Of a stretch of 51,868 nucleotides of DNA, positions 5,765 to 29,866 are shown piece after piece. Under the pieces are notes generated by a model that worked only from the letters and a program-made list of their open reading frames with translations, made no database searches and was not told the DNA's origin. The stretch lies in the IMG/VR virus record IMGVR_UViG_3300044815_000174, positions 1-51,868 of that record, one strand, 5' to 3'. Source of the stretch: a virus. Position 1 is the stretch's first letter. Every line of letters begins with the position of its first letter. The position numbers were made by a program, and so were the translations under genes.

Positions 5765-6198
5765 TGCCTGAAATCACACGAGAACAAATTGTTGAAGCCG
5801 CGCGCTCTTACATCGGCGTGCCTTACGTGGCAGGCGGGCAGTCGCGCGAAACCGGACTCAACTGCGCCGGGTTGATCGTCTGCGTCGCGCACGATCTTGG
5901 TCTCACAGATGTCGAGTTTCCGGGCAAGTCGAATTTCACTAAAGAAGATCCTTTGGATGAACTCTTCGGCGCGCACCTGGACAAACTTGATGACTGGAAA
6001 GAGGCGCAGGCTGGCGATGTCCTGAGCGTAGCCTACGAGAGCGATCCGCATCATTGCGGTTTCGTCTCAAAGGTCAATCAGTTCGGCGTGTATTTCATTC
6101 ACGCCACGCGAAATCACGGAATCATCGAGCATCGCCTGTATGGAAAATTGCTGCGCTCAATCGCCGCAGGTTACCGGGTGCGCGGGTTGAAAGACTGA
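5764..6198 (+). CDS. NlpC/P60 peptidase of the tail tip (GTA gp14-like)
   Basis: This 144-aa protein has the NlpC/P60 cysteine peptidase core: Y-GVPYVAGGQS at residues 17-27, catalytic Cys in NCAGLIVC (about residue 37), and a histidine motif in DPHHCGFVSK (about 98). It likely cuts peptidoglycan peptide crosslinks so the tail can cross the wall. Its position between the hub and tip proteins is the standard one. ATG overlaps the preceding stop by one base (TAATG) and its own TGA overlaps the next ATG. Confidence 0.9.
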   Translation: MPEITREQIVEAARSYIGVPYVAGGQSRETGLNCAGLIVCVAHDLGLTDVEFPGKSNFTKEDPLDELFGAHLDKLDDWKEAQAGDVLSVAYESDPHHCGFVSKVNQFGVYFIHATRNHGIIEHRLYGKLLRSIAAGYRVRGLKD

Positions 6199-8909
6199 TG
6201 AAACGCTGGCTCCGAATTTTAGTCTTTTATCTTTTCTTCGCCGCGGCGTTGGGGCTGGATCATGCCCTCGGTAACGACCGTCGAGTGCTGGCGATGGCTG
6301 ACCCCATCTCCGGTACCATCCTGCTAACAATCGCCGTCAGCGCAGCTTTAGCTGGCGGTCAATACATCCTCACGCGCGCTCTCGCCGGGCGGCCAAAACC
6401 TATCCAGCGCGGCAAGCTCGATGGCGGGCTGCAACTGCAAGACTCTGATTACGACCTCTTCATCAACGAAATCTACGGCGGCGACCCCGGCGATGGATTG
6501 GGCGGAGGCATCAAGGCGGCAGGCATCATTATTGACGCTTCTCCGATCCGTCCGGTTGTCACTACTACACATGAGTCAACAGGCGGCGGCAAAGGCGGGG
6601 GAGGTGGCGGCGGAGGAGGCGGTACTGTCGAGACTACTTCGTACTACATGGACCTTGATGTCATGGTCGGGCGCGGAGTTCTCAACTATAAGAAAATCTG
6701 GTTCGTCACCGGAACCGGCATGAAGCTCGTCTATGACATGACGACAAACTTTGTTGAGACAGGGGTGATTGACCCTGACTTCCCGCCGGAAGACGAGCAG
6801 CATTATTACCTGTTGCCTGATCCCCTGCTCGAAGACCCGAACCCGAAACTGCGCTACGGCCACGTTCCGGTGCCTGATGAGCATGGCACGATAGACGCTG
6901 AAATCGTCGGCTCCGGCTACGGCGGCATTCGCATCTATGAAGGCAATGACACGCAGCTTCCCGATCCTCTGTTTGAAGGTATCAACAATGCCAAATACGG
7001 CGCGCCCGCCGGAGCGGTCGCCTATCGCCATCGCTCGCACGTCGTCTTCGAGAACGTTGATGTCAGCAACGGCGTCCCGAACATTCTCTTTCTCGCAGAG
7101 AACAAGGAACTCAAAACGCTTGATCTGATTCTCGCTGATCGTGCCGAGCGCGTCGGCGTGCTGCCTGAAGATCTCAACTTCGCGGAACTCGACGTTAATG
7201 TGCGTGGCTGGATCGTGACGCAGGAGCAGGCCCCACGCTCGGACATGGAAGAGTTGTCTGAGATTTTCGATGTCAACTTCTTCGAGGATATTGATGGGAC
7301 GATCACGGGCGAAGAGCAGGATTACACAGTCGTTGCCACAATTGACGAAGATGACATCGGTGCTCGCGCGCAGGGTGATGAGGATAACGGAGGTGCGCCC
7401 CCTGATTTAGTCAATATTCGTCAGGGCGAGCAGACCGCCTTACCTACTCAGCACATTTTCGGGTTTTACGATCCGGTTAAAAACTACGACCCGAACAGCG
7501 CCACAGGTTACCGGCAGGTCACTAATTCCGAGAAGCGCGAGACGGTTCGACATTCCGTGGTGATGACCGTCGCCGAAGGGCAGATAGCAGCCAACCGCGA
7601 CATCGCGAAGGCATGGTCTGAAGCTGACGCTTTCACCTTCGATCTCTTTCCCAAATACGCTTACCTGCGACCCGGCCAGCGCGTCCTGGTTCCCAAAGAC
7701 GGCGAGCAGTACCTCGTCAAACTTACAGAAACATCCGGCTCGCTGCCAGGCCCGAGGCATTTCGCCGGAGTCTCACAGAAAGCCGTGCAGGTCAGCGCCG
7801 CAGCAACAATCGGAGCCGCAGCAACACCAAAGCCCGCCAACGTGCCGGCCAATACCGTCGCCACCTTCATTGATAACCCCCGCCTGCTGAGCCAGCAGAA
7901 TGCGCCCGGTTTTCTCGTCGCCGGGACACCCAAAGATGTGAACTCGGGCGAGTGGAAAACCGCGACTGTCTGGGTTGATAAAGGCGACGGCTTTAAGCGC
8001 CTCGCGGTGCTCGATGCGCCCGCCACGATGGGCCGCGCCGTCGGCGCGCTTCCTGATGTGCCCATTGGATTGAAAGGTGAATGGGATGATGTTTCAGAGG
8101 GCACGCTTGATCTCTTCTATGGCGAACTCGCCTCCGGGACTGACGACAATCCGATCCCAATGTACTGGGGCGATGAGGTTATCGAATACGTCAATGCTGT
8201 CAAAGACAACTCCGGCGATTATCCGAACCGCTGGACAATCTCGCGTCTGCATCGTCGGCTGAAAGGCACGGACGCGGCGAGTGCCACGCATCAAGATATG
8301 GAGCGGGCGGTGCTTCTCGACGACGCCGTGAAATTCATCAAAGTCGATCAATCTGAGCGGGACGTAGAGCGCACCTACAAAGTGACAACCAACGGCCTCT
8401 TCGTGGCGCAGGCTGTGGCCGACGCCGCGCCGATCATCTTCACATGGACGGGACAGACCTTGCCGTCGTTCACAGTGGCAGGGCCAAACCTTCATGTGCC
8501 GACTATCGGTGCAGCGCCCACGATCACCAAAGACGATGCGAGCGCAAACTGGATCGTCAACGCGCCCAAGCCGTCTTATTTCGGACTGCCCATCACCGGC
8601 CATGAAATAAGGCTCTATTCGGACTCGGCCTGCACAACGCTTGTGCGGACAATCGTCGGCAATCTCGAAGGGCGCACCTATGTGCCTCAAACCTCGGCTG
8701 ACGGTTACTTCAAATATCGCTGGCGTAATGATTCGCTCGAGGACCTTGGTGACGGAGCGGGCTGGAGCGTCTTCAGCGCAGCTTCCACTGTCGCCTATGG
8801 CACGAGCGCTCTTGCGCCTAACACGCTCGATTCAGGGCTGAGTGGCTACGACCCTGACCCTTACGATTCGGGCAATCCACACAAACGCATTTACACGGAC
8901 GTGTACTAA
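6198..8909 (+). CDS. tail tip / host-specificity protein (GTA gp15-like)
   Basis: This 903-aa protein follows the NlpC gene with an ATGA overlap. Near residues 125-150 it has a poly-glycine linker preceding TTSYYMDLDVMVGRG, typical of the tail-tip family that carries the Phage-tail_3 (PF13550) domain. That domain covers roughly residues 370-560 (regions around LNVRGWIVTQEQAPRSDMEELSEI). The last 150 residues look like a fibronectin-III-type beta module. An open frame extends upstream to 6054 but overlaps NlpC. Another possible start is the ATG at 6294. The first 30 residues from 6198 look like a membrane anchor or signal peptide, which is odd for a tail tip. Confidence 0.85.
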   Translation: MKRWLRILVFYLFFAAALGLDHALGNDRRVLAMADPISGTILLTIAVSAALAGGQYILTRALAGRPKPIQRGKLDGGLQLQDSDYDLFINEIYGGDPGDGLGGGIKAAGIIIDASPIRPVVTTTHESTGGGKGGGGGGGGGGTVETTSYYMDLDVMVGRGVLNYKKIWFVTGTGMKLVYDMTTNFVETGVIDPDFPPEDEQHYYLLPDPLLEDPNPKLRYGHVPVPDEHGTIDAEIVGSGYGGIRIYEGNDTQLPDPLFEGINNAKYGAPAGAVAYRHRSHVVFENVDVSNGVPNILFLAENKELKTLDLILADRAERVGVLPEDLNFAELDVNVRGWIVTQEQAPRSDMEELSEIFDVNFFEDIDGTITGEEQDYTVVATIDEDDIGARAQGDEDNGGAPPDLVNIRQGEQTALPTQHIFGFYDPVKNYDPNSATGYRQVTNSEKRETVRHSVVMTVAEGQIAANRDIAKAWSEADAFTFDLFPKYAYLRPGQRVLVPKDGEQYLVKLTETSGSLPGPRHFAGVSQKAVQVSAAATIGAAATPKPANVPANTVATFIDNPRLLSQQNAPGFLVAGTPKDVNSGEWKTATVWVDKGDGFKRLAVLDAPATMGRAVGALPDVPIGLKGEWDDVSEGTLDLFYGELASGTDDNPIPMYWGDEVIEYVNAVKDNSGDYPNRWTISRLHRRLKGTDAASATHQDMERAVLLDDAVKFIKVDQSERDVERTYKVTTNGLFVAQAVADAAPIIFTWTGQTLPSFTVAGPNLHVPTIGAAPTITKDDASANWIVNAPKPSYFGLPITGHEIRLYSDSACTTLVRTIVGNLEGRTYVPQTSADGYFKYRWRNDSLEDLGDGAGWSVFSAASTVAYGTSALAPNTLDSGLSGYDPDPYDSGNPHKRIYTDVY

Positions 8910-12045: not shown

Positions 12046-13038
12046 TCACTTCCCTTCTCTTAACTTTGGATGGTTGCACTTTGCGACGCCGCCGCTCGTT
12101 CCGTTCGGATACCAGAAGCCGCTCCCCTGACAATCCGTGCACTGGCTCGCGTCAACAGCGGTCGTCGCTGTGACGGGCGAAAGAAACGCGGCAATGCTGG
12201 CGTCAGCTTCACCTGTGCGATAGATGGTTGTGGCATAGCCTCCTGGGTTCTTGATCCCCTGCCCTGTCGATTGAAGATGTCTCGCATACCGCTGGCATTC
12301 TTCCGGCGAAAATTTAGAACCCACACTCACACTCGCCGGAGGCGGAGGCTGCTCCTGTGTTTGTGTGTTTTCTTTTAATGTATTTCTTTTATTGTGTGCC
12401 TGTGGAAGCTGCCTGCTCTGTGGCGACTGGCTGCTTCGTCGCGGCTGGCTGCTCGGAGCGGACACCCTGAAATCAATTCCCTGCTTTTTACCGTAACCCA
12501 ATTCCATGCCCAGTTTTTCGATCAACCCTTTCGCCCGTAACTTGCCCAGAGTTTTCTTGACTGTGCTTTCAGACATCCCTGTTCGCTCGGCTAACTTGGG
12601 ATTACTGATGGAACAAATGGGTTTGTTGAATCCCCAGGACAGTCTGTAGAGCTGTAGATACACTGCTTGCTCAAAAGGGTCGAGTAATCTAAAAAGGTGA
12701 TCTACAAGCTGATGCGGCAATTCCAGATGTCCAACAACTTCAGGTAATGAGGCGAGTAGATTAACTGATATATGCCTGTCCTGTGGCGGCTGGCTGCTCT
12801 CTGGCACCTGGCTGCTCTCAGGAAGCTGGCTGCTCTCGCGCCCGCCATGTGGCAGGGCTAAAAGCTGGCTGCTCTCTGGCGACTGGCTGCTTTTTAACGG
12901 CTGGCTGCTCTCATAGACCTGGCTGCTCTGTGGCGGCTGGCTGGTATCTTCGAGGTGTTGTGTTTCAGATTGGACTTTTGACTGATCCTTTTCTTTCTCA
13001 TATTGAGCATTGACCAGTCGGGCGAATCTACTGCTCAT
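12046..13038 (-). CDS. winged-helix replication initiator-like protein with SSQ repeats
   Basis: The 330-aa protein has four parts. Residues 30-85 consist of SSQxxE-type repeats. Residues about 100-200 form a helix-turn-helix module (PFEQAVYLQLYRLSWGF ... KLAERTGMSESTVKKTLGKL), like Rep and DnaD-type initiators. A second short SSQ block follows. The end is a zinc-binding-like motif C-DC-G-GFWYPNG...KC-HP-L. It is encoded by the same transcript as the AAA+ ATPase upstream (4-bp overlap) and lies 1.7 kb from a set of iterons. The inferred role is origin binding for plasmid-type replication. A transcriptional regulator is the main alternative. Confidence 0.6.
   Translation of the reverse strand: MSSRFARLVNAQYEKEKDQSKVQSETQHLEDTSQPPQSSQVYESSQPLKSSQSPESSQLLALPHGGRESSQLPESSQVPESSQPPQDRHISVNLLASLPEVVGHLELPHQLVDHLFRLLDPFEQAVYLQLYRLSWGFNKPICSISNPKLAERTGMSESTVKKTLGKLRAKGLIEKLGMELGYGKKQGIDFRVSAPSSQPRRSSQSPQSRQLPQAHNKRNTLKENTQTQEQPPPPASVSVGSKFSPEECQRYARHLQSTGQGIKNPGGYATTIYRTGEADASIAAFLSPVTATTAVDASQCTDCQGSGFWYPNGTSGGVAKCNHPKLREGK
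12409..12456. repeat. 18-bp-spaced repeats inside rep-like gene, 3 copies
   Basis: CTG(G/C)CTGCT units start at 12409, 12427 and 12445, exactly 18 bp apart. On the coding (minus) strand they encode SSQ/SRQ tripeptides. Confidence 0.85.
12790..12948. repeat. 18-bp-spaced repeats inside rep-like gene, 8 copies
   Basis: CTGGCTGCTCTC-like units start at 12790, 12808, 12826, 12865, 12883, 12901, 12919 and 12937. All steps are 18 bp except one of 39. On the coding strand nearly every copy uses the same codons, AGC-AGC-CAG, although serine has six codons. That points to recent tandem expansion or selection on the DNA, for example as protein-binding iterons. Confidence 0.9.
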
Positions 13039-13838
13039 ATCGCTACCTCTGGGGCCGTGTCATCAATCATTTCTGATGTAACCTTGTTGCTTCCTTCCAT
13101 GTTCATCATTTGATAGGCCAAGGCGCAGATCTTCAGGATGTTCCGGGGAATACCTTTTGAATGGAAGTAGATGCGCTCCATCGCGCTCCGGTCGAATGGA
13201 TTCGGAATCGCCATAAACTTACAACGATGCACGATCATTTCAACCGTTTCGTCCTGCGTGAGCGGGTCAAGCACCGAGTAAGTTGAAATTCGAGAGTACA
13301 GCGCTTTGTTTTTCTGTGTATTGAGCTTGTCGCGCAACTCCAGTTGACCGGCGAGTGCGATCTGAATCAGCTTGTGTTGATGCGTCTCATAGTTAAGAAG
13401 GGCGCGAATCAGCTCGAGCTGGTGATTATTGAGAATTTGAGCTTCATCAATAAACAGAACGACATTTTTGCCGGTCTCATAAGTTGTTAAGAGCCATTCC
13501 TGAAGAGCATCCTGTTGAGCGATGAAACTGCGCAGCGGCTCGATCCCCAAATCGCTGCAAATATATTTCAGCATCGCAAAGATGGAAGGGAACTTTGGTG
13601 TCGGAATAAGGGTCGCGATGATGTTATCTTTCGCCGCATATTCGCTGTACAGAAAGCGTAAAACAGTTGACTTGCCCATGCCCACATCGCCTAAAGCCGC
13701 GCAGGTCAGTCCCTGGCGCTGATCGATTGTGAACTTGGCCTTGACCATCACAGCGCGTAGTGACGGAGTGATATACAAACTGTTTGGGTTCGGGGAAATA
13801 GAGAATGGAGTGTCTTCAATTATTGGAGGTGCTTTCAT
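13035..13838 (-). CDS. AAA+ ATPase, ExeA/TniB-like
   Basis: This 267-aa ATPase has Walker A GDVGMGKST at residues 50-58, Walker B VVLFIDEAQ at 126-134, a sensor-type Arg in the SRIS region and the C-terminal GIPRNILKICALA lid typical of ExeA-like ATPases. Relatives act as secretion ATPases, transposition target selectors (TniB/MuB) or helicase loaders. Here it is co-transcribed with a Rep-like protein next to iterons, so a helicase-loader role is the best inference. The stop overlaps the Rep start by 4 bp. The start is ATG 13838 and a good promoter lies 10 bp upstream. Confidence 0.75.
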   Translation of the reverse strand: MKAPPIIEDTPFSISPNPNSLYITPSLRAVMVKAKFTIDQRQGLTCAALGDVGMGKSTVLRFLYSEYAAKDNIIATLIPTPKFPSIFAMLKYICSDLGIEPLRSFIAQQDALQEWLLTTYETGKNVVLFIDEAQILNNHQLELIRALLNYETHQHKLIQIALAGQLELRDKLNTQKNKALYSRISTYSVLDPLTQDETVEMIVHRCKFMAIPNPFDRSAMERIYFHSKGIPRNILKICALAYQMMNMEGSNKVTSEMIDDTAPEVAI

Positions 13839-15493: not shown

Positions 15494-16762
15494 TTACTGT
15501 CGTTTTTGCATGACAGGATAAGGTTCATTCGTGAGCCATTTAGTAAAGGACTTTTTCATTATTTGCAATGCATCTGAATTTCTACTAATTGGAATTGGTG
15601 TCAGTGAAAATAAATCGTTGAAGTCATAATCATTACTATGAAACGGTGTTATTTGATCGTCACCCTTCAACTCATGAAGGACATACGGCATTGGGTATTT
15701 ACCAATGGTTAATAATACTGTTTGGCGCACCCCCGCCTCCTTGAGCAAGTTTCTGGCCCACTCCAATGAGCTTCCGGTGGTAGTGAAATCATCAACCACC
15801 ACAATGGAACGGCCATCCAGCTTGCTTATGTAATCTGGGTGAAGGTGAACAGTGTTAGTTTGGTTAGTGTTTGGTATGTTGGGGACACGCCCCGCCCTCG
15901 TAGCCTTAGCCTTTTCAAGGCTGCTGTCAACCGCCTGCTTAGCGCGGAAAAGTAAATCCTCTTTGAAGTAGCCGTGGAAAATTTTCGAAACTGGTTTTAA
16001 GAAGTCTTTGAGAAGTGGGCTGATCTTGCCAGGCGTGCTGCTGGGATAAACTGCGAAATAAGAATTCCGAGATATTAAGCCCTCAAGATAGAGGCTTGTG
16101 ATTGCATGAAGCATCAACAGGTCCCGTGCGCCATACTTACCGACTTGGACTTTATTCTCATAGGTAAAAATGTCTTGTAATGTAAAAGACGGTGGGATAG
16201 TGGGCCTAGGGGTGTCAGTTTTGCTCGCTGGTAGTCTGGCATTGGACCCGAGCAAACTACGCACGTGCAGGTGTAACTCTGGAATATCCAATGAATATTC
16301 CCATCGTGGAGGGGTTAAAAGAAAATGCGTTATGAATCGCCAAATGGCTTCCGGCTCGTCGGTAGCTATCGCTGTGACCCCTTGCGGCAAAGCCGCGGCC
16401 CATTTTGCATGTATATAAATGGTTGGGGTATTGATAGCAGATCGCCAGTCTCGCGAATCGTCTCCTACCATTAAGAAATTGTTTTGGCTTACATTAAATC
16501 TCCGCGCAGTTTCATAAATCCATTCCGGTGATCCTTTACGTTTGCCTGTATCCTTTTCAGTGATAATTAGATCAGGACGGGGCAACCCCATCTGGTCGAA
16601 TTTCAAATTAAAATCTTGGGGATGTGTCGAGAAGACTATAAGCTTTAATCCATGAGATTTGATTTGCGTGAGAAGTTGCTGAAGACGAGCCAGAAGCTTT
16701 GGAGCGGGTTGGCTTAGCAACAGGCAGCTATAATCAAAGATGACACCAGTGAGGGTTGTCAC
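15494..16762 (-). CDS. shosT-like: HAD-like/phosphoribosyltransferase fusion, ShosT-like toxin or effector
   Basis: Residues 1-150 form a HAD-type domain with nucleophile D10 (VIFDYS), motif II VFST (43-46) and motif IV GDDSRD (100-105). The usual second aspartate of the DxD motif is replaced by serine. Residues 200-420 form a type I phosphoribosyltransferase with the PRPP loop VVVDDFTTTGSS (321-332). A DprA-like gene lies 16 bp upstream on the same transcript. A PRTase effector with a DprA partner is the composition of ShosTA, described as a toxin-antitoxin pair and later as an anti-phage system. Base composition looks more AT-rich than the flanking genes, suggesting acquired cargo. Activity is inferred. 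Confidence 0.75.
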   Translation of the reverse strand: MTTLTGVIFDYSCLLLSQPAPKLLARLQQLLTQIKSHGLKLIVFSTHPQDFNLKFDQMGLPRPDLIITEKDTGKRKGSPEWIYETARRFNVSQNNFLMVGDDSRDWRSAINTPTIYIHAKWAAALPQGVTAIATDEPEAIWRFITHFLLTPPRWEYSLDIPELHLHVRSLLGSNARLPASKTDTPRPTIPPSFTLQDIFTYENKVQVGKYGARDLLMLHAITSLYLEGLISRNSYFAVYPSSTPGKISPLLKDFLKPVSKIFHGYFKEDLLFRAKQAVDSSLEKAKATRAGRVPNIPNTNQTNTVHLHPDYISKLDGRSIVVVDDFTTTGSSLEWARNLLKEAGVRQTVLLTIGKYPMPYVLHELKGDDQITPFHSNDYDFNDLFSLTPIPISRNSDALQIMKKSFTKWLTNEPYPVMQKRQ

Positions 16763-16778
16763 TTATTTCTCCTTCGAC

Positions 16779-17978
16779 TTATGCAGCTTTGGATTTTGCC
16801 GCTTTCCTGATGGCTTTTACAAGATGTCGGATGTCGAGTTCCGAAGCTGTGCGGTAACTGATTTCCCTGACGACTTTTCTTTCAAGCGCGGCAAGTGCAT
16901 AAGTTTTTAGTTTGTGGGAGCGTGCCAGCTTGCGGAAAATCTGATCGAGTTGCTTTGAACCTTTCTGGCTAAAGATGTCGATAATTGTAGAACCGCCCGC
17001 TCGAAGATCGTCGAGAATACCGTTAGCACCTTTCCAGTTGATCCCAATTACTTCACGTTTATACTTGCGCGCCCAGCGAATGGTGTGAGCTGTGCCGCCC
17101 TGGAGATTTGCTTCAACGGGAATAACAATGCTGGCGAGCGCCGCTTGCAGGCGATTCCGTTCGACAAAGAATGCCTTTTGATAGTGCTCGGTAGGCAGGT
17201 ATTCAGTAACAACTGCACCGCCTTTATCAACTATCTGTTTCCTGAGATCAGCAGTGGCCATCGGAAAAGTGAAATCTATGCCGTGGCCAAGAAAGGCGAC
17301 GTTCTTAACGCCATCACCCAGGGATTCGCGATGTGCGGACTCGTCAATGCCTTCCGCAAGTCCAGAAACAAGCGTGATTGGATATGGTGAAAGAAGTCTG
17401 GTGACGTAAATGGCGGCAGTCTTGCCGCGCTCAGTGGGATTCCTGGTTCCGACTACAGCGACGACCGCTTTGTGATAGAGAACACTCGGATCGCCTTCGA
17501 CGAAAAGCCAGCGTGGGTAATCGGGGATTTTCCGCAAGCTGGCCGGCAGTTTCTTCAAGGGAATGATGGTCACTCCCTTTTGCTGTAATTCGTAAAGCTG
17601 CTCTCCGGCCTTTTCGAGAAGGATTTCCGAATCAGCTTGGATAGCAGTGAGAATTTTATCAGCGCTAGGCGTCTTGGCTGCTATCAGTGCTTGATGTACC
17701 CGCGGAGATGGCGCTTTCCAGACATTGCTTAAATTCCCCTTGAACTCATCAACAAGGGCTATCAAACCTTTACGACCCAGTCCAGCAATGCTGCTGAGCG
17801 CTAGAAGCGTGAATTCAAATGAAGTGGTTCCAGTGTCTGGTTTATGCCCTACTTCGAAAAGCTGATCATCAGAAATGGAGTCAATGTTCATCACACCGCC
17901 GCTGCCTGTCTCCTCGGCTGAACGGTCGCTCTCGTTGAGAATGTTGGTGTGGGCGGGCATGTGCATGGCCGAATTCAC
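16779..17978 (-). CDS. shosA-like: DprA/Smf-like protein, ShosA-like antitoxin
   Basis: The protein has the DprA Rossmann fold at residues 170-305: VVGTRNPTERG (175-185), SGLAEGIDESAH (205-216) and FFVERNR...EANLQGGT (270-297). An N-terminal helical region with an HhH-like SSIAGLGRKGL sequence and a C-terminal winged-helix-like tail flank it. Stand-alone DprA loads RecA on ssDNA during transformation. Linked to a HAD-PRTase gene it is better read as the ShosA component, which neutralises or controls ShosT. The GTG at 17978 gives 399 aa. An internal ATG at 17891 (MNIDSISDD) is an equally plausible start. Confidence 0.8.
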   Translation of the reverse strand: MNSAMHMPAHTNILNESDRSAEETGSGGVMNIDSISDDQLFEVGHKPDTGTTSFEFTLLALSSIAGLGRKGLIALVDEFKGNLSNVWKAPSPRVHQALIAAKTPSADKILTAIQADSEILLEKAGEQLYELQQKGVTIIPLKKLPASLRKIPDYPRWLFVEGDPSVLYHKAVVAVVGTRNPTERGKTAAIYVTRLLSPYPITLVSGLAEGIDESAHRESLGDGVKNVAFLGHGIDFTFPMATADLRKQIVDKGGAVVTEYLPTEHYQKAFFVERNRLQAALASIVIPVEANLQGGTAHTIRWARKYKREVIGINWKGANGILDDLRAGGSTIIDIFSQKGSKQLDQIFRKLARSHKLKTYALAALERKVVREISYRTASELDIRHLVKAIRKAAKSKAA

Positions 17979-18102: not shown

Positions 18103-19068
18103 TCACGCCGCGTTCGAGGCAGCAAATGCCGACGGCAAGCGTTGAACGTAAGAGACCGGCTTCTTAATGATGCGAGCGACTTCCTCCGGCGTCGCATACG
18201 ACGTCGGTTTGACCACGCCGGAGGTGTTATTGACCTCGCAGGCGAATCGCTTGAGGTTGCGCTTGAGCAGCAGGCTGGTCAGGAACTTGCTGGCTTCAAC
18301 CGCGATGCTCGCGTTGATGTCGAAGGATTGCTGATTTGCCATCAGCATCTCCGCGCACGAAAGATTGTTGTTAGCCAGTTCTTCAGGCTGGTCGTCGAGC
18401 AGGTCCGGATAGAGGTGTGCGGGACTTGGCAAAGCCGCACACACATTAGGCTCTGGGAAAGCTGCGGCCAGCGCGTGAATGGAATAGGCGGAACCTAAGA
18501 GCACGCGCCCCGAGTTCTGCACGTTGCCGCAGTCGAGCCACCAGTAAGAAGGCGGGAAGGGGAGCTGATCGTCATTGTGTGAAAGCGTCTCATTGAGCGC
18601 GCGCCGCCCTTCGGCGCCGTCCACGCAGCCGACAAGGATCGTGATGTCGGCATCGTTTAAGTATTTTTCGTCGTACTTATCAACGGCGTATGTGGTGTTG
18701 ACGCCCCAGGCGAAACCGTAGCGGCGGGCGAGCGCGAGCGCTTTGGGCTGTCCGACTTCGGCATCACAGAAGAGCTGGCGACCGATGTTGCCTTCTTCGA
18801 CGATGTCAGGATCGAGAAGCGTCAGGTGGCCCCGCTTGCCGAGGCCGTAGAGGACTCGCGTCAGACGCGCCGCGTGCATGGCCATAAAGGAGCCTGTGCC
18901 GCCGCAGCCCGCGATGGCGATCTCGAACGAATCGAATTGCGGCAGATGAATCGTGGCCGCGTTGAGCATACTCAAATCGAGTGCGGGCATGATCTCCGGT
19001 TTTGCAACTTGCGGTTGGCGTTCCTGGCGCTGATTGTTGTTTCTGAATTTTCTATGTTTCCTGGGCAT
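18103..19068 (-). CDS. PRTRC-system ThiF/E1-like adenylyltransferase
   Basis: This 321-aa protein has the E1/ThiF nucleotide loop AGCGGTGS at residues 53-60, the LLDPDIVEEGNIGRQLF segment (usually D-D-V--SNL-RQ in the family) near 83-100 and a Cys-containing VGCVDG strand near 146-150. E1-like enzymes adenylate the C-terminus of a ubiquitin-like protein. It is the last gene of a cluster ordered like the PRTRC set (ParB, E, C, F, B, A, ThiF), matching the PRTRC ThiF family. SD GGAGGA lies 5 bases before ATG 19068. The probable partner Ubl is at 21729-22223. Confidence 0.85.
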   Translation of the reverse strand: MPRKHRKFRNNNQRQERQPQVAKPEIMPALDLSMLNAATIHLPQFDSFEIAIAGCGGTGSFMAMHAARLTRVLYGLGKRGHLTLLDPDIVEEGNIGRQLFCDAEVGQPKALALARRYGFAWGVNTTYAVDKYDEKYLNDADITILVGCVDGAEGRRALNETLSHNDDQLPFPPSYWWLDCGNVQNSGRVLLGSAYSIHALAAAFPEPNVCAALPSPAHLYPDLLDDQPEELANNNLSCAEMLMANQQSFDINASIAVEASKFLTSLLLKRNLKRFACEVNNTSGVVKPTSYATPEEVARIIKKPVSYVQRLPSAFAASNAA

Positions 19069-19279
19069 GTTTGTCCTCCGTCTCGACCTTTGATTTAAGA
19101 AGCACTACCTGCTTCTCTATCAATGTTCTGAATCCGATGTTTTGCATGTGCTGGCCATCACTCGCCCTGACGCCATAAGACAGGATTCTATAAATCCGAT
19201 ATGTCAGGCCGCGCAGCATAAATTTATCGCCTTTTCGAAGCTCAGTTCCTTCGTCGATTATTTGTTCGTTCGCTGCCAT
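19052..19279 (-). CDS. small PRTRC-cluster protein, 75 aa, unknown
   Basis: The start at 19279 has GGAGG seven bases upstream, and the stop overlaps the ThiF gene by 17 bp. The protein is a compact beta-rich sequence with a KGDKFMLRGLTYRIYRILSYG core, resembling a small barrel, and has no recognised family. It sits between the JAB protease and E1 genes, so an accessory role in the same pathway is likely but unproven. Confidence 0.7.
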   Translation of the reverse strand: MAANEQIIDEGTELRKGDKFMLRGLTYRIYRILSYGVRASDGQHMQNIGFRTLIEKQVVLLKSKVETEDKHAQET

Positions 19280-19297
19280 TTCAATTCCTCCACTGAC

Positions 19298-19978
19298 TCA
19301 TTGTTTGCTGTCAATATCCACAGAAAGTGCATCGTTAAATTCTGCTGGTAGCTCGAAAAACTCATTCGCCCAGTAATCGAAAAAATAACCGAACACGCCA
19401 ACGCGCACGCGGATCGTCGGTGTATCGAAGATGGTCCCGATCACGGCATAAATCCTGAAACCCTGCGCTTCGTCCGTGTCATCATCTTCAGAGAAATCCG
19501 CGGGCATCGTGTGATGACTGTGCAGCTCGACGATGGCGCGCTCGGTTGATGTGCCTGCTCCGGTTTCAACGGGGACGACACTATTGTCTTCCGCTTTCTG
19601 GTCTGGAAATTCCAGGTGCCAGCCGTCCGTGAAATCGAGGATGGTCGTTGCGCCGGTGTAGGGTGTTGGCCGCTCATTCCACGACAAATGGAAAAGCGTC
19701 TCTTTAAGTTCAGGCACGCAGCGCGTGCGCGAGAGGGCGAGTATCCTTTGCAGGAAGCGCGCGGGGACTTTAGGAAACCCCCATGTGACGTAAGGCAGGA
19801 TGGGCGCCAGCCCACGCAGTTCGTAGAGCGCGATGGGAATGCACGCTTCAAGGCCGGGCCTGCGAGAGCGCACGAAAGTGCCATTGCCGCCGACGACCAC
19901 GTCTAGGAGAAGGGATTCGTCCACCGGCGGCAGGGGCTGGCCGGGTTGCGCGAAATGATGATCTGTTAGACGGAGCAT
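19298..19978 (-). CDS. PRTRC protein A, JAB/JAMM metalloprotease
   Basis: Starting at ATG 19978 (GAGG eight bases upstream) the protein is 226 aa; the open frame extends further upstream without a better site. Its C-terminal half contains ELHSHHTMPADFSEDDD. This matches the zinc-protease signature H-x-H-x7-S-x2-D exactly (H153, H155, S163, D166) and is preceded by Glu candidates. JAMM proteases remove or mature ubiquitin-like proteins. Together with the E1 and Ubl-like genes this completes a process/conjugate/deconjugate cycle. In PRTRC clusters protein A occupies this position next to ThiF. Confidence 0.8.
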   Translation of the reverse strand: MLRLTDHHFAQPGQPLPPVDESLLLDVVVGGNGTFVRSRRPGLEACIPIALYELRGLAPILPYVTWGFPKVPARFLQRILALSRTRCVPELKETLFHLSWNERPTPYTGATTILDFTDGWHLEFPDQKAEDNSVVPVETGAGTSTERAIVELHSHHTMPADFSEDDDTDEAQGFRIYAVIGTIFDTPTIRVRVGVFGYFFDYWANEFFELPAEFNDALSVDIDSKQ

Positions 19979-19988
19979 GGAAACTTCC

Positions 19989-20162
19989 TCAATGATCAGC
20001 ACCAGCAAAATTGTTAGAGGTCGCAATCTTTAAGCAGCGCTGACAGGTCACACGCTTGAATCGACGAGTCGAAGTCAGCTCACAGGAAGGCCATCGCTTT
20101 TGAATGTTGCATAAAGGCAAAGTGCCGTAAAAACGAAAATGCGTTTTCTTGTTGCCAGCCAT
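19989..20162 (-). CDS. 57-aa basic CxxC protein between PRTRC B and A
   Basis: The ATG at 20162 lies two bases after the PRTRC B stop (TGACAATG). The 57-residue frame runs to 19989, just before the ribosome binding site of protein A. It is basic and has four cysteines including TCQRC, suggesting a small zinc-binding fold. The tight packing on both sides supports it being a real, translationally coupled gene. No family is recognised and it is below common ORF cutoffs. Confidence 0.6.
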   Translation of the reverse strand: MAGNKKTHFRFYGTLPLCNIQKRWPSCELTSTRRFKRVTCQRCLKIATSNNFAGADH

Positions 20163-20164
20163 TG

Positions 20165-20884
20165 TCACGATAAATCTCCGCTCTCCAGCAGTCCCTTGAG
20201 TGCCTTATCCAGGGTGATCCCCGTATTGCTCACCTGGCGCTCTAAATCCTGCACCGGGTAATGAGCAGGCTCCGCGGCTCTCGCCATGTCCCTGAGCACG
20301 ACGCGCACGTCGTCCGTGCTGCGCTTCGATTTTCCGTCGCAGCGATGGTTGTTAAAGGGTGTGGTGATAAAGATGCGCCACGCCTGCTTGATCGCGGTGG
20401 CGGAGCAGCGCGGCGGCTGATGGGTGCCGAAGCAGATCAAGCCGCTCGGCTCAACGTTAGGCAGCGGCGCGTGATAGATTTCCCTGTAAGGGTCCAACTC
20501 CTCTGTCTTGACCGCCCACAGGAAATACTTGTTGCCAATCCCGAACATCACGAGACCCGGTAAAGGGACGCTGATCCTGACAACGCCGCCTTTGGCCTCC
20601 GGTGCATCGCTGACCATCTCCAGCGTGTGGCGCTGCGGCTCCATGTACATCACGGCCCAGTCGCCGCTTCGGCCCGTTCCCCAGTTGCGAATCTCGGGCG
20701 GAATCCAGCCCGACGAGACCGTGATCTTCGTGAACGCCTCGCGCACGGCGGCGGCCGAGAGCAACTTTTCATGCACGGCTCCGTCATGATCCCGAACTTT
20801 GAAAAGGAACTGTCCCGAGAGGATTTCAATTCGCGGGGCCGGAGCCACGTTGTTGTACGCGGGACGCATAATCTCTTCGCTCAT
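20165..20884 (-). CDS. PRTRC protein B, E2-like (Prok-E2_D type)
   Basis: The chosen start ATG 20884 has GGGAG ten bases upstream, giving 239 aa. The N-terminal half contains VRDHDGAVHEKLLSAAAVREAF and the central part PLPGLVMFGIGNKYFLWAV. The C-terminal half has NVEPSGLICFGTHQPP, a conserved-looking segment with a single cysteine in the position expected of the family's active-site region. PRTRC B proteins have been grouped with prokaryotic E2-like folds. Its place between the F-position gene and protein A is canonical. Whether it forms a thioester with the Ubl is not known. Confidence 0.7.
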   Translation of the reverse strand: MSEEIMRPAYNNVAPAPRIEILSGQFLFKVRDHDGAVHEKLLSAAAVREAFTKITVSSGWIPPEIRNWGTGRSGDWAVMYMEPQRHTLEMVSDAPEAKGGVVRISVPLPGLVMFGIGNKYFLWAVKTEELDPYREIYHAPLPNVEPSGLICFGTHQPPRCSATAIKQAWRIFITTPFNNHRCDGKSKRSTDDVRVVLRDMARAAEPAHYPVQDLERQVSNTGITLDKALKGLLESGDLS

Positions 20885-20888
20885 TGTC

Positions 20889-21725
20889 TTAAAACTCCCA
20901 TTCGCCTGATGATTGATTCCAGATTTCAATAACGCGAGCGATTTGCTCGGGATGTTGTTGGAGGTAAATGCTTTCCGCGAGCACCGCGGTCAGCATCTGT
21001 TTCGCTAACTTCCAGTGCTCGGCGAGCGCATCGATGTTTTCCTTGTTCCACTCGAATCTGAGGTCCAGATCCTCGTAAGTCGGACTGAGCGGATGCGCGT
21101 CGAGAAAGAGATTTCCTGACCTGTAGCACACGATTGCGAAGGCCTGCGGCAAAAGTCTGAAGGCTGGCTCATCCAGGCAAGCCTGCGTGAATCTTTCAAC
21201 ACTGACCTCTTCCCAGTGCCGCGGGCGCATCTCGAGCGGCAGGTTGTAGAGGCGCGCGAACTTCGGCCACCAGTCCCGTTTCAGAAATGTATTGCAGAGC
21301 GCGATGACGATTTGATAAGCCGTCGGCCAGCTTTCGAATGACGAGCCGTCGCCGATTGTCCAATCGATTTTCTGCATGCACCGGATGGGGATCACGGGGT
21401 AGATAAACTGCGGGTGCTTGTACAGGGGTCGCAAATCAATCGGGAATTTGCGCTTGTTGAGCAGGTGGTAAAACTCGAACTCGCGCTCGTGGGTGTAAAG
21501 CGGGCGCGCTGACCTGCGATAGGCTTCGGGAAAAACTTCTTCGTAGAGGAAGCTGATATTGATTCCGGCCTGCACCATCATGTCGTAGCCCTCGCGCCCG
21601 AGTTCGAGAAAGAGCGCCGCGCCCCGCGGCGTTGTCGCGCGCACGCGGCCCGCGAGGTAAATGGTCGCGCGCAGGGCGTCGAGCGGCTCGCCAAATAGTT
21701 CGGATGTGTTCACGACATCAGACAT
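20889..21725 (-). CDS. PRTRC cluster protein at the F position, unknown function
   Basis: This 278-aa protein lies between the C-like and B genes, which is where PRTRC protein F is encoded, with gaps of 3-4 bp on both sides. It is Trp/Tyr/Phe-rich and mostly helical, with no membrane segment and no recognisable catalytic motif. The family name is given on gene order only, because no diagnostic sequence motif could be confirmed. Confidence 0.6.
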   Translation of the reverse strand: MSDVVNTSELFGEPLDALRATIYLAGRVRATTPRGAALFLELGREGYDMMVQAGINISFLYEEVFPEAYRRSARPLYTHEREFEFYHLLNKRKFPIDLRPLYKHPQFIYPVIPIRCMQKIDWTIGDGSSFESWPTAYQIVIALCNTFLKRDWWPKFARLYNLPLEMRPRHWEEVSVERFTQACLDEPAFRLLPQAFAIVCYRSGNLFLDAHPLSPTYEDLDLRFEWNKENIDALAEHWKLAKQMLTAVLAESIYLQQHPEQIARVIEIWNQSSGEWEF

Positions 21726-21728
21726 GAT

Positions 21729-22223
21729 TCAGAATCCCACGGGCACTTCGTCGGAAGTGGTTGGAAGCGCGTGGCCGATCAGGAAAAGAGCGTCGGCCAC
21801 AGCCTGGCCTTCATTGTTCGATTCGGAGATGGCGCGCTCGACATCTCCGCGTCGTGCGGCTGCCTCGAAGAATTCTCTATCGCCCATCATCTCGGCGCGC
21901 ATGACATCCTCGGTGAGCGCGATGGCCGGGTTGACGTAAGGGGGTGCGGCACGGAGCGCGTCAATTAATTGTGACTGCTCAAGTGCCATGGGCCGCGTCT
22001 CCGGCTGCAACAATGCTTGCGTCAAGGCCACCTGTCCTTTCGGTGTCGCGCGCTTGGTGACGGTGATGACGGCGGGCGCGCCCTCCTCTTTGACGATCTC
22101 GATCTGCGCGTTCTCGATTGCCGGAAATTCCTGCGAGAGCAGATTCCTGACTGCTTCTTTACCCAGTGCGGCAATCTCGTCCGGGACGGTGATGCTCTTG
22201 CCTTCGATTTTTACGATAGCCAT
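21729..22223 (-). CDS. PRTRC protein C-like ubiquitin-fold protein with C-terminal extension
   Basis: Residues 1-60 read as a beta-grasp ubiquitin-like domain: two beta strands (MAIVKIEGKSITVP), a helix with a PDEIAALGKEAVRNLLSQEFP signature, then strands ending AVITVTKRATPKG. PRTRC C proteins share the pattern of a short -EVR--YA--YPEL- helix and a final (F)-R--GTKG. Those usually stop near this glycine, whereas here a helical, acidic extension of about 100 residues follows. AGGAG lies seven bases before ATG 22223. It is the likely substrate of the E1 (18103-19068) and JAB (19298-19978) proteins. The internal PKG could be a processing site. Confidence 0.7.
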   Translation of the reverse strand: MAIVKIEGKSITVPDEIAALGKEAVRNLLSQEFPAIENAQIEIVKEEGAPAVITVTKRATPKGQVALTQALLQPETRPMALEQSQLIDALRAAPPYVNPAIALTEDVMRAEMMGDREFFEAAARRGDVERAISESNNEGQAVADALFLIGHALPTTSDEVPVGF

Positions 22224-22255
22224 TTCGGTGCTCCTGATGTGGTGGTGGTTGGTGT

Positions 22256-24580
22256 TTAGACTTTGGCGCGGGATTTCTTCGACGAAGACTTGCTCGCCTT
22301 AACAGCGCTCTTTTTTGCCGCAGTCTTGGTTATGGTCTTATCCGCGCGCGCGGCGGGCTTCTTCTTCGTTGAGGGGCTGCTGCCGGCGGCGGCGGTGGCG
22401 TTGCTTGTTGCCTTGGCGAGCGTTTTCTTCTTCGCCTGTGCCTCTTCGAGCTGTGTCTTGACTAATTGCATGACCTCTTCCGGCAATGGTCTGAGGACAT
22501 CGGCGGAGACGACCGTGCGGAATGCGCTGTACGGATCATTGCCAATGCTGATAGTGACGCTGACTTTGTCTTCCAGCCCGGGTATCCAGATGTATGAGAT
22601 CGCCAGCTTCTCATTGCCGAGAAGCTCTTCGATGGGAGTCGGCTCCGGTTGAGTGGGCGTTTGATTCTCCGCCTGACTTCGCGCCGTCTCACGCGCTTTT
22701 TGTCCGGCTTCATATTCGTCCTGATATTCGACGGCATCAGCGATAGCCTCTGCCGAGGTTTTGAATGGCGGGCGGCTAACCCTCAGCGTGTCGTTGTCTG
22801 CACGAAAGCCGGCCGGCATTCCGACCGTTGCATGACGGCGCATCACCCATCCGGCATTTCTCATCGTGACGCCGAAGTAGCTTTCAGATTGGCTGGATAC
22901 TTCGGGTTCCATCGGCGCACTCTTCTGACTGCCTGTTTCTGGTGCCCCTTCTGTGCCCTCCTGCTGTTCTGCCACTGCTGCCGTAGTAGGTTCGGGATTG
23001 GCTTCATTAGCCGGGAGAGAAGTCCCGTCAGGCGCAATCGTTTCTGTCACAACCTCGACACCAGAGATTTGAACTTCGAGCGCATCATGTCCCGGTTGCA
23101 GTTCAACGCCAGCGAAAAGCGGCGTCTCTGGCTCCGCTGCCTTCGTTGCGACCGCGCGCACGATGCCATCGGAGCCGCGACGGCGGCCGTCGTCAGCCAA
23201 AACATTTTGGATCAGGGTTGCGCGCGCCGTCGCCGTCAGGTTTCTGACCAGGCGCACGAGGCTGATTTGGGTGCCGCTCACGGCTGCAAGCTCTTCATCG
23301 CTCGATTCACCGTCCGGGTCTTCGATTAGAACCGGCACAAGGCGTGTAAGCGAGCGGCGCACGTCGCTCAGGAAAGGCTGCGTCATGCCTCCGGCAATTC
23401 CTGTCAGCATCGAATCGGATTCCTTGAACCACTCTTCATCGGCGAGCAGGGTGACAGCCTTGAGGCGCTTATCGTCGTTGGTCAGCCTGAGGCCATGGTT
23501 CGCGTTGGCACGCAGGGCAAACAGAATGGCGTCGCGCAGTGTGCCTTTGTGAACCTCGACATCGAGGAGCGCACCAGCTTCCAGTGCCGCTGCGTGGCGA
23601 TGGTTGCCGTCAGCGACCCAATAGGTTTCGCCATCGAAGAAGACATCTGCGGGAGGGTAGGTGCGACCGGCTTTATAGCCCGCGACGAGTCCCTCGGCGT
23701 GGTCACGATCCAGGCCCTGCGCGCGCATCAGGAGAGATGGATGCGTCGTGAGCCGGTCGGGCGTCATCTGCTGCACGAGAATTCGTGAAGGCTGATCGGC
23801 GCCGAGATCGAAAAGGGAATCGGAACGCGCAGGGTTGGCTTCATCCAGCGTCGCAGCGCCGATGATCTCCACCTTTTCAGCCTCACTTAAAACGCTTTTA
23901 AGAGACGGGTTGATGATCTGGAGAATGTCGGAGTTGACACTGTATTCCCATGCGTCGGCTTCGATGCCCGTGCCGAGCCCCATTGCTTTGAAAGCCTCAA
24001 TATCTTCAACGCAGCATGAAGCGACGATAAGAGTGCCAAGCTCGAGAGCGTCACGATAGGCGATGGCCAGTTCGACGATGCCCTTCAGGTTGTCGGTGGT
24101 GAGCGTGCATTTGAATTCGTAGAGAGTGTCCCCAGCGACCAGATCGGCGATGCCTTCGCCGCTGTCGACATCGGTTCTAAAATGCACGCCTTTGGAAGTC
24201 AGCTCTTCGATGAAGTGACTCCGCAGGTCAACTTCGTGCGCTAGCTCTTTATGCTGTTGTCCGGCAGCGGAAAGCGAAACATGCGGTGCCTTGATCTGGT
24301 TGGCGATGTCTCCAATGCTGGAAAATCCCGATGTGGTTTGAGCGGGCTGCTCCAAAGCCTCATCCGGGCTTTGACCATTGATCTCTCGTTGAATGACGTG
24401 CGCGGCGGCAATTACCTTTGCCTCGGTTTCGAAAGGGCCACGCGCGTCGGACGCCTCATAGTTGCGCCATACGAACTCACCATCTTCAGGAACGACTGTC
24501 CAGCCGGACTCAGACAAAAGTGAGAAGAGCGCTCCGTCTTCGGGACTCAAACCTTTAATTAAATCGATAATGCTGCTCAT
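22256..24580 (-). CDS. nuclease-ParB fusion, PRTRC ParB/E-like
   Basis: The 774-aa protein combines several modules. Residues 110-180 look like a PD-(D/E)XK nuclease (GIADLVAGDTLYEFK, with D146, E155, K157). Residues 265-410 form a ParB/sulfiredoxin-type domain with VADGNHRHAA (323-331) and the following ANANHGLRLTNDDKR helix region. Residues 500-600 are an acidic linker. Residues 655-720 resemble the PRTRC E-type C-terminal domain, and the last 60 residues are a Lys/Ala-rich DNA-binding tail. PRTRC clusters encode ParB and E separately, so this appears to be a fusion. No ParA gene is present. AGGAG precedes ATG 24580. Confidence 0.75.
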   Translation of the reverse strand: MSSIIDLIKGLSPEDGALFSLLSESGWTVVPEDGEFVWRNYEASDARGPFETEAKVIAAAHVIQREINGQSPDEALEQPAQTTSGFSSIGDIANQIKAPHVSLSAAGQQHKELAHEVDLRSHFIEELTSKGVHFRTDVDSGEGIADLVAGDTLYEFKCTLTTDNLKGIVELAIAYRDALELGTLIVASCCVEDIEAFKAMGLGTGIEADAWEYSVNSDILQIINPSLKSVLSEAEKVEIIGAATLDEANPARSDSLFDLGADQPSRILVQQMTPDRLTTHPSLLMRAQGLDRDHAEGLVAGYKAGRTYPPADVFFDGETYWVADGNHRHAAALEAGALLDVEVHKGTLRDAILFALRANANHGLRLTNDDKRLKAVTLLADEEWFKESDSMLTGIAGGMTQPFLSDVRRSLTRLVPVLIEDPDGESSDEELAAVSGTQISLVRLVRNLTATARATLIQNVLADDGRRRGSDGIVRAVATKAAEPETPLFAGVELQPGHDALEVQISGVEVVTETIAPDGTSLPANEANPEPTTAAVAEQQEGTEGAPETGSQKSAPMEPEVSSQSESYFGVTMRNAGWVMRRHATVGMPAGFRADNDTLRVSRPPFKTSAEAIADAVEYQDEYEAGQKARETARSQAENQTPTQPEPTPIEELLGNEKLAISYIWIPGLEDKVSVTISIGNDPYSAFRTVVSADVLRPLPEEVMQLVKTQLEEAQAKKKTLAKATSNATAAAGSSPSTKKKPAARADKTITKTAAKKSAVKASKSSSKKSRAKV

Positions 24581-24617: not shown

Positions 24618-25079
24618 CTAGGCGAGGGCGATCACTTTGCAATTCGTCTTATCGCCGTTCTTGGTGCATTGCACGAGAATCTTCTTTTTGAAGGGATACT
24701 CACCCGGTTCCATGTTTCCTTTGACACCCAATTCATCTAGATATTCCGGGTAGATAGGCAGGCCAAACTTGGTGTACTTGCCGCCTTTGACGTTGAAGTG
24801 CTTGCCCTTTTTGTCGTGCGTCACCTCAAGGGTCTCGCCCATGACAGTTTCCGTCGTCGTGTTCGGATCGCTGGCTACGGGTGCAGTCGGCGTTACAGGG
24901 GTGGTCTGCACAGAAGTCCATCCGCCGGCGAGAGCCTTATTGATTGACTCGGAACTTTTGCGAAAGATTTCGCCCTTTTGAGTGAGATTGCCGGAAAGCT
25001 GGAAGGTATGGACCACACCCTGCCGATCTTGAAGCTGGAAGGACTCGCTGAAAAAGATGGGGGCTGTTTCATCACTCAT
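24618..25079 (-). CDS. hypothetical protein of the early leftward operon, 153 aa
   Basis: The start at 25079 has AAGGA nine bases upstream, and the preceding gene ends two bases before it. The N-terminal third (FFSESFQLQDRQGVVHTFQLSGNL) and the C-terminal third (KKGKHFNVKGGKYTKFGLPIYPEYL...LVQCTKNGDKTNCKVIALA) are beta-rich, separated by a Thr/Pro linker. It precedes the ParB-like gene in the same transcript and may belong with the PRTRC set. No family is recognised. Confidence 0.65.
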   Translation of the reverse strand: MSDETAPIFFSESFQLQDRQGVVHTFQLSGNLTQKGEIFRKSSESINKALAGGWTSVQTTPVTPTAPVASDPNTTTETVMGETLEVTHDKKGKHFNVKGGKYTKFGLPIYPEYLDELGVKGNMEPGEYPFKKKILVQCTKNGDKTNCKVIALA

Positions 25080-26990: not shown

Positions 26991-27015
26991 TTGCTTGTCC
27001 TCTCGCTCGTGGTTT

Positions 27016-27069
27016 ATCTAGTAATCATCTAGACAAATAGGATTATAAACTTTATCTAGATAATGTCAA
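27016..27069 (-). promoter_or_regulatory. leftward early promoter with three TCTAGA operators
   Basis: On the minus strand TTGACA (27064-27069) and TATAAT (27042-27047) are both perfect consensus, 16 bp apart. A 12-bp palindrome TTATCTAGATAA (27052-27063) fills the spacer, and related sites lie at 27026-27035 (CATCTAGACA) and near 27016-27022 (TATCTAGT). The same promoter-operator core, CTCTTGACATTATCTAG, recurs at 29810-29826 driving the opposite strand. Repression would shut off the operon that includes the PRTRC cluster. Confidence 0.8.
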
Positions 27070-29757: not shown

Positions 29758-29866
29758 GTATCTAGCATATATCTAGATGTTGCTTTTGGATATACCATAA
29801 CGAAAAATCCTCTTGACATTATCTAGTGAATCTTTTAGAGTGCTTTATCTAGATAGCTTCTAGACG
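29758..29866 (+). promoter_or_regulatory. divergent switch region: rightward promoter and five TCTAGA operators
   Basis: TTGACA (29813-29818) with a poorer -10 (TAGAGT, 29836-29841) reads right toward 29875. Operator-like sites lie at 29758-29766, 29769-29780 (ATATCTAGATGT), 29819-29830, 29845-29856 (TTATCTAGATAG) and 29857-29866. The bases CTCTTGACATTATCTAG match the leftward promoter at 27 kb. Sites on both sides of the promoter and over the -10/+1 region fit a repressor/antirepressor switch. Confidence 0.75.

Follow-up and report, generated by a model that had tools for sequence, protein, structure and literature searches.

A PRTRC-type gene set in a complete phage genome

The window analyzed here is the whole of virus record IMGVR_UViG_3300044815_000174 (positions 1–51,868), and it carries, contiguously on the minus strand from position 24580 down to 18103, a set of genes related to the ParB-related, ThiF-related cassettes (PRTRC), which would together provide a pathway for conjugating a ubiquitin-like protein (Ubl). 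In order of reading, the set comprises a ParB-like fusion protein, the Ubl C, a helical protein in the F position, the E2-like B, the JAMM protease A, a 75-amino-acid (75-aa) open reading frame (ORF) and the E1/ThiF protein (Table 1). The ends of the window share a 127-bp direct terminal repeat, indicating a closed assembly and a complete phage record, and its genes include, by comparison with PHROGs, a terminase (PHROG 2), portal, major head (capsid), tape measure and major tail proteins and an endolysin, so that terminase, portal, capsid, tail genes and completeness all place it among the tailed phages.

Table 1. Features of the cassette and of its upstream control region in the window (pLDDT, predicted local distance difference test)
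Feature	Position	Strand	Evidence or remark
PRTRC ThiF/E1-like adenylyltransferase	18103..19068	-	TIGR03736 2.5e-39; PF00899 2.9e-12
75-aa ORF between A and E1	19052..19279	-	no family match
PRTRC A, JAB/JAMM metalloprotease	19298..20026	-	TIGR03735 3.1e-13; PF14464 2.1e-6
PRTRC B, E2-like, 239 aa	20165..20884	-	PF14460 Prok-E2_D 1.8e-22; TIGR03737 2e-13
F-position protein, 278 aa, all-helical	20889..21725	-	collinear homologs; AlphaFold2 model, pLDDT 87.5
C gene, probable Ubl precursor, 164 aa	21729..22223	-	profile-profile match to canonical PRTRC C
Predicted C-terminal extension of C, residues 64–164, helical, ends VPVGF	21729..22034	-	separate gene in some relatives
Predicted Ubl domain of PRTRC C, residues 1–63, ends ...VTKRATPKG63	22035..22223	-	G63 codon 22035–22037
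ParB-like fusion, 774 aa	22256..24580	-	PHROG 1033 1.8e-11
Operator-like TATCTAG repeats at leftward promoter	27015..27062	.	further cluster at 29759–29855, single copy at 24737
Sigma-70 promoter, perfect TTGACA-16-TATAAT, overlapped by operator-like TATCTAGATA	27042..27069	-	reads leftward toward the cassette

The original prediction described a complete PRTRC set of six genes, and all six ORFs are indeed contiguous on the minus strand, with homologs of C, B, A and ThiF in the canonical order beside ParB. Hidden Markov model (HMM) searches are in agreement with this, matching E1, A and B to TIGR03736, TIGR03735 and TIGR03737, respectively, as well as to PF14464 and PF14460. Composition and order therefore stand. 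None of ThiF (135 bits against a cut-off of 144.75), A (49.7 against 101.8), B (50.3 against 131.45) and C (12.8 against 45.95) reaches its TIGRFAM equivalog cut-off, however, which points to a divergent clade rather than a textbook PRTRC. No separate protein E could be shown, and a placement of E within the C-terminus of the ParB-like protein was rejected because hhalign of that domain against canonical E gave only 3.7%. Judged from its sequence, the set is best named PRTRC-type, a cassette that is homologous to PRTRC and mostly collinear with it but belongs to a divergent clade.

The F-position protein matches no named HMM, and its model has no significant Foldseek match in the PDB; it is nevertheless collinear and homologous with the F genes of relatives (E 3e-68 against an iterated profile seeded in part with the protein itself). 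The canonical-type F proteins of phage BgVeeders33 and locus L009 score only 1e-5 to 1e-8, also against an iterated profile that had them among its seed sequences. The first gene of the set had been described as a nuclease-ParB fusion. Its ParB-like core (about residues 258–470; PHROG 1033, and hhalign against ParB at 95%, E 3.5e-8) bears out the second half of that description, and the nuclease half comes down to a D...ExK-like motif (GIADLV at 143, YEFK at 154) in a part that matched no family, with an N-terminus that is homologous in loci L068 and L092. The remaining parts are a DUF2188-like N-terminus (below cut-off), a beta-rich C-terminal domain and a Lys/Ala-rich tail, and homologs of the protein are present in L002, L016, L017, L020, L040, L068 and L092.

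Residues expected for catalysis are intact in all three enzymes, as an alignment of 132 loci shows. The JAMM motif H-x-H-x7-S-x2-D of A is exact, at residues 153–166 when counted from an internal ATG, as originally noted, and at 169–182 when counted from the TTG; in the latter, 242-aa numbering the residues are H169, H171, S179 and D182, together with E109. The two His, the Ser and the Asp are kept in 55/55 viral rows and, among 126 rows overall, in every one except three that are truncated. The candidate catalytic cysteine of B, Cys151 (codon 20432–20434), is Cys in 132/132 loci; as to the downstream His that is absolutely conserved in the E2-like proteins of operon type 6d of Iyer et al., the window has FNNH, and no downstream His reaches 90% in the 132-row alignment, in which column correspondence is unproven. 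E1 carries the anticipated AGCGGTGS as its P-loop, and its putative catalytic cysteine, assigned from its position in a conserved SCAE motif, is Cys238 (codon 18355–18357), a Cys in 131 of 132 rows, the remaining row being truncated. Compared with solved structures, the E1 profile matches UBA5 best (1.5e-6), with ThiF close (4e-6) and MccB and UBA6 also among its nearest relatives, and the protein matches ThiF/MoeB models too.

The cassette was also predicted to share one leftward early transcript with small regulators, controlled by TCTAGA operators. The genes do form a single leftward array, at whose promoter an operator-like repeat is found, and strand and gene order suggest that this promoter drives the cassette. 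The operator sequence itself must be revised: TCTAGA occurs at chance frequency (6 copies against 6.28 expected) and was rejected, and the operator-like word is instead TATCTAG, with 9 copies against 1.31 expected, a number reached in 0/100 shuffles. The leftward promoter (27069–27042) and a rightward sigma-70 promoter (29813–29841), the latter within the divergent region at 29759–29855 that also holds TATCTAG, both carry TTGACATTATCTAG.

The Ubl gene product as a probable precursor and its association with the JAMM gene

The 164-aa product of the C gene was originally read as a Ubl-like protein, which holds for residues 1–63 only; a second, helical domain is fused to these, and the whole is most likely a precursor in which the Ubl is followed by a junction that is not conserved and then by the tail of helices. 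Single-sequence HMM searches match C only weakly (TIGR03738 0.098, PF14454 0.086), whereas hhalign of its profile against that of annotated canonical PRTRC C gives a probability of 96.2% (E 2.1e-9) and places K62–G63 on the KG with which the canonical protein ends. The AlphaFold2 model has strands at 2–6 and 9–13, a helix at 22–29 and strands at 40–44 and 52–56, that is, a beta-beta-alpha-beta-beta order, followed by a low-confidence link and helices, and with the hhalign match this favors the beta-grasp fold on which the original prediction depended. When the C-termini of the Ubl domains of 111 loci are aligned, Lys is found in 109/111 and Gly in 110/111, with positional entropies of 0.15 and 0.07 bit, respectively, and 3.60 bits at the very next position. 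Such a minimum with a jump right after it is the mark of a mature C-terminus.

The tail is fused to the Ubl in the window and most relatives, and the two are separate genes in L002, L005, L010, L015, L017 and others; the Ubl ORF stops straight after the Gly in, among others, L002, L015 and the Planktothrix plasmid, all of which have the tail as a gene of its own. The products of the separate tail genes end in VPVGF, IPTGF or similar, and we note that a final Gly-Phe (57 loci) or Gly-Trp is conserved in fused and separate tails alike. In L002, which has no JAMM gene, a phage metallopeptidase (PF18894, 1.3e-15; 6136–6723) lies between the Ubl and the split-off tail. The matching sets of two viral records (L051, L052) and a Herpetosiphon genome (L162) have GTK-A rather than GTK-G at the junction; as they recur in both viral records and the genome, they probably represent a prophage in an isolate.

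Extension-free Ubls are found in 16/16 sets without a JAMM gene and in 13/107 sets with one (Fisher 1.4e-12, relatedness ignored). The absence of A was checked across the whole plasmids, genomes or viral contigs, with positive controls, and Pelobacter pPRO1 was coded as JAMM-bearing, as its A spans the record origin. In the other 94 of the 107 JAMM-bearing sets the extension measures 1 to 125 residues. Ubl genes with merely 1–6 extra residues are likewise accompanied by A, and the trimmed Ubls of the JAMM-less sets stop exactly at the conserved Gly. The JAMM state changes at least 8 times on the tree. A JAB-domain protein in L069 was considered as an A and rejected, being a lambda gpK-like tail protein beside an I-like gene.

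The cleanest case is provided by Planktothrix and its relatives in Oscillatoria/Microcoleus, which are separated by very short branches on the E1 tree, and where JAMM loss coincides with a stop after the Gly. The relatives, which have A, encode a Ubl ending in ...TCTAAAGGA followed by GTAAAATAA (protein ends KG-VK, KG-VR or KG-AR), and in Planktothrix, which lacks A, the same ...TCTAAAGGA is followed directly by TGA (KG-stop), so that the change costs the Ubl two residues only. The Planktothrix B–E1 gap is about 130 bp and retains sequence resembling both ends of A. Taken together, the pre-cut Ubls of JAMM-less sets and this natural loss make maturation of the Ubl the most likely function of A.

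Distribution and relation to known systems

E1 homologs were sought in viral contigs, genome contigs, phages and plasmids, and about 120 relatives were compared; Salmonella phage Arash and crAss-like phages were left out, though E1-like genes matched there. Counting the window and BgVeeders33, 58 viral loci have E1 and E2, 46 of these also C and A, and 38 also a recognizable F, with a clear terminase or portal match in 27/33 records checked, plus one weak match. BgVeeders33, an isolated Burkholderia phage, carries C-F-B-A-ThiF and a tyrosine-recombinase-like gene. Given these 58 loci and the isolated phage, carriage of PRTRC-type sets by phages is recurrent and not unique to the window. On the E1 tree, the window groups with six other viral rows (support 99), several of which have a GpA-type terminase on the same contig, where the window has PHROG 2; the cassette thus travels separately from the structural module, and this tree requires at least 21 switches between virus and non-virus. 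The best genome matches are in Acidobacteriota, Cyanobacteriota and Chloroflexota, with Acidobacteriota being our guess for the host, and the nearest plasmid homologs lie on cyanobacterial plasmids (E1 identity 45%). Cassettes of this kind are known mostly from plasmids, hundreds of which carry PRTRC, as 360 plasmid records match one canonical-type E1. Outside the compared set, phage Arash (L007, 177–179 kb) has consecutive genes of the E2-like, JAB and E1-like kinds, of which two carry the annotation "structural protein"; a Ubl C was not found in the stretch examined, hence the exclusion of these phages.

Ubiquitin–ribosomal protein fusions of eukaryotes also join a Ubl to an unrelated protein from which a Ubl protease frees it, a likeness meant as an analogy only, with no common ancestry of the tails implied. 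In the PRTRC of plasmids in Proteobacteria and Deinococcus (TIGR03734–TIGR03742), as in the window, a ParB gene is followed by C-F-B-A-ThiF; the C, B, A and E1 proteins of the two are homologous and have the terminal KG of C in common. The window differs in its sub-cut-off scores, in that no separate E was found, and in the fused helical tail and the phage carrier. It likewise resembles operon type 6d of Iyer et al. 2006 (PMC1779556), which has a Ubl with a conserved C-terminal glycine (here Gly in 110/111, followed by an extension), a helical protein, an E2-like protein with invariant Cys (here 132/132), a JAB and an E1-like protein, and in which JAB processing of such Ubls was predicted; the sets listed there are from bacterial genomes, in contrast to the phages and tail-fused Ubl precursor described here. 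Experimental precedent comes from the cyclic oligonucleotide-based antiphage signaling system (CBASS), which also combines E1, E2 and JAB: cGAS is conjugated through a single C-terminal Gly/Ala, conserved solely where Cap2/Cap3 are present, and the JAB Cap3 cuts after that residue (PMC10097602). Since Cap3 accepts Gly or Ala, the KA ending of the Pelobacter pPRO1 Ubl is unremarkable. In CBASS, however, cGAS itself is the tag and E1–E2 are one chain, whereas the window has a dedicated Ubl, separate enzymes and no cyclase. The Bil (BilABCD) and Bub operons do have a dedicated Ubl with E1, E2 and JAB, but BilA has two Ubl domains and the E1 architecture differs, BubCD being further off from our E1 profile (1.6e-4).

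Proposed pathway, role and alternatives

We consider it probable that the cassette provides a Ubl conjugation pathway that is complete in itself and of PRTRC type (Iyer operon type 6d), in which A matures C after Gly63, every chemical step of which is deduced from sequence. A would cut C into a 63-residue Ubl (...TPKG) and a helical tail protein of ~101 residues; E1 would adenylate the new C-terminal glycine and then hold the Ubl as a thioester on candidate Cys238; and B would take it over on Cys151 and conjugate it to amino groups of targets, from which A may also release it. The helical F would be the likeliest adaptor, and the ParB-like protein the likeliest DNA-bound partner. A phage-borne, catalytically intact set with a defined, predicted cleavage site and a natural loss case opens this uncharacterized cassette to specific tests, namely a cut after G63, thioesters at Cys238 and Cys151, and a protease needed only for a tailed Ubl. 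It also shows that sets for ubiquitin-like conjugation are repeatedly carried by tailed phages themselves, beyond the antiphage defenses of their hosts. A partial survey of the literature, which gives no proof of priority, found neither PRTRC on phages nor a proven PRTRC function.

Several points weigh against this pathway. In tree-independent pairs, a mean of 4.3 are concordant, 0 opposed and 1.7 without difference, so that the association between JAMM and extension is not significant (median p 0.125), and the JAMM-less viral contigs L060, L064 and L065 may be fragments. Thirteen JAMM-bearing sets have an extension-free Ubl, suggesting that A does more than processing there. Foldseek found no significant match in the PDB for the whole two-domain C model, so that homology and the order of the strands and helix are what speak for the beta-grasp fold. 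Ending in a single Gly would fit a sulfur carrier as well, a ParB-type protein was detected upstream of the cassette in only 28/45 testable viral loci (with only four ParB hits elsewhere in them), and the partial literature survey found no biochemistry for PRTRC.

For the role of the pathway, we lean tentatively toward maintenance of the element. ParB and replication genes are recurrent neighbors, and replication or partition proteins of element or host are on that ground possible targets, although we hold this loosely. In more detail, C may be a two-product pro-Ubl gene, yielding both a tag and a helical Gly-Phe partner in the same pathway, with JAMM loss compensated by a split or truncation exactly at the Gly, and with the ParB-like protein directing the pathway to the element's replication/partition complex; we offer this, too, as a tentative suggestion. 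A less favored role, and to our minds an unlikely one, is that of a weapon with which a prophage tags proteins of superinfecting phages in defense of host or lysogen, as in Bil or CBASS Cap2/3; tagging of a rival phage's proteins was among the readings of the original prediction. Related bacterial Ubl systems are defensive, an Oscillatoria plasmid set (L010, 9946–13525) lies directly beside CBASS-like genes, one for a DncV-like cyclase and one with a SAVED domain, and the window has, on the strand of the cassette and 125 bp downstream of E1, a ShosTA-like pair, a known defense type (15494–17978, minus; DprA-like ShosA, PADLOC 1.7e-67, and a HAD plus phosphoribosyltransferase ShosT, 2e-29). No specific defense model matched A, B or F, however, and among 124 downstream neighbors in the other viral loci no defense family recurs, any such family being matched by at most two of them, mostly reverse transcriptases. 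Replication and recombination genes are instead found there (DnaA_N-like, DnaB, beta clamp, dUTPase, resolvases), in a coarse test that named only the top 25 families and had no control set.

That A is purely a deconjugase, with JAMM loss and Ubl trimming both reflecting genome reduction or gene fission, would accommodate the thirteen extension-free sets with A as well as the non-significant pair test. We regard this as improbable in light of the 16/16 against 13/107 contrast, of trimmed Ubls that end at the conserved Gly and not randomly, of the mere two residues removed in Planktothrix, and of the A genes that accompany extensions of just 1–6 residues.

Less probable again is a sulfur-carrier system, with C as a ThiS/MoaD-like carrier that A merely trims and on which E1 makes a thiocarboxylate. 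JAB-trimmed sulfur carriers do exist, as in CysO/Mec+. The E1 matches to ThiF/MoeB models fit such a system, as do the JAB genes noted in sulfur operons by Iyer et al. (PMC1779556), but sulfur transfer has no need of an E2-like protein whose Cys is invariant, the best solved match of E1 is the protein-conjugating UBA5 (with ThiF close), and no rhodanese or sulfur-metabolism family is listed among the recurrent neighbors of the viral loci. Finally, we consider it highly improbable that the cassette is a misassembled or recently inserted plasmid segment, for although its closest plasmid homologs are cyanobacterial and PRTRC moves often between viruses and non-viruses, the terminal repeat, the structural genes that flank the cassette on both sides, and the supported clade of the window with six viral rows, several with GpA-type terminases, all speak for phage DNA.

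Elsewhere in the window, a transposition-type ATPase (13035–13838, minus; PHROG 296, DNA transposition protein, 3.6e-20) lies beside a replication-initiator-like gene.

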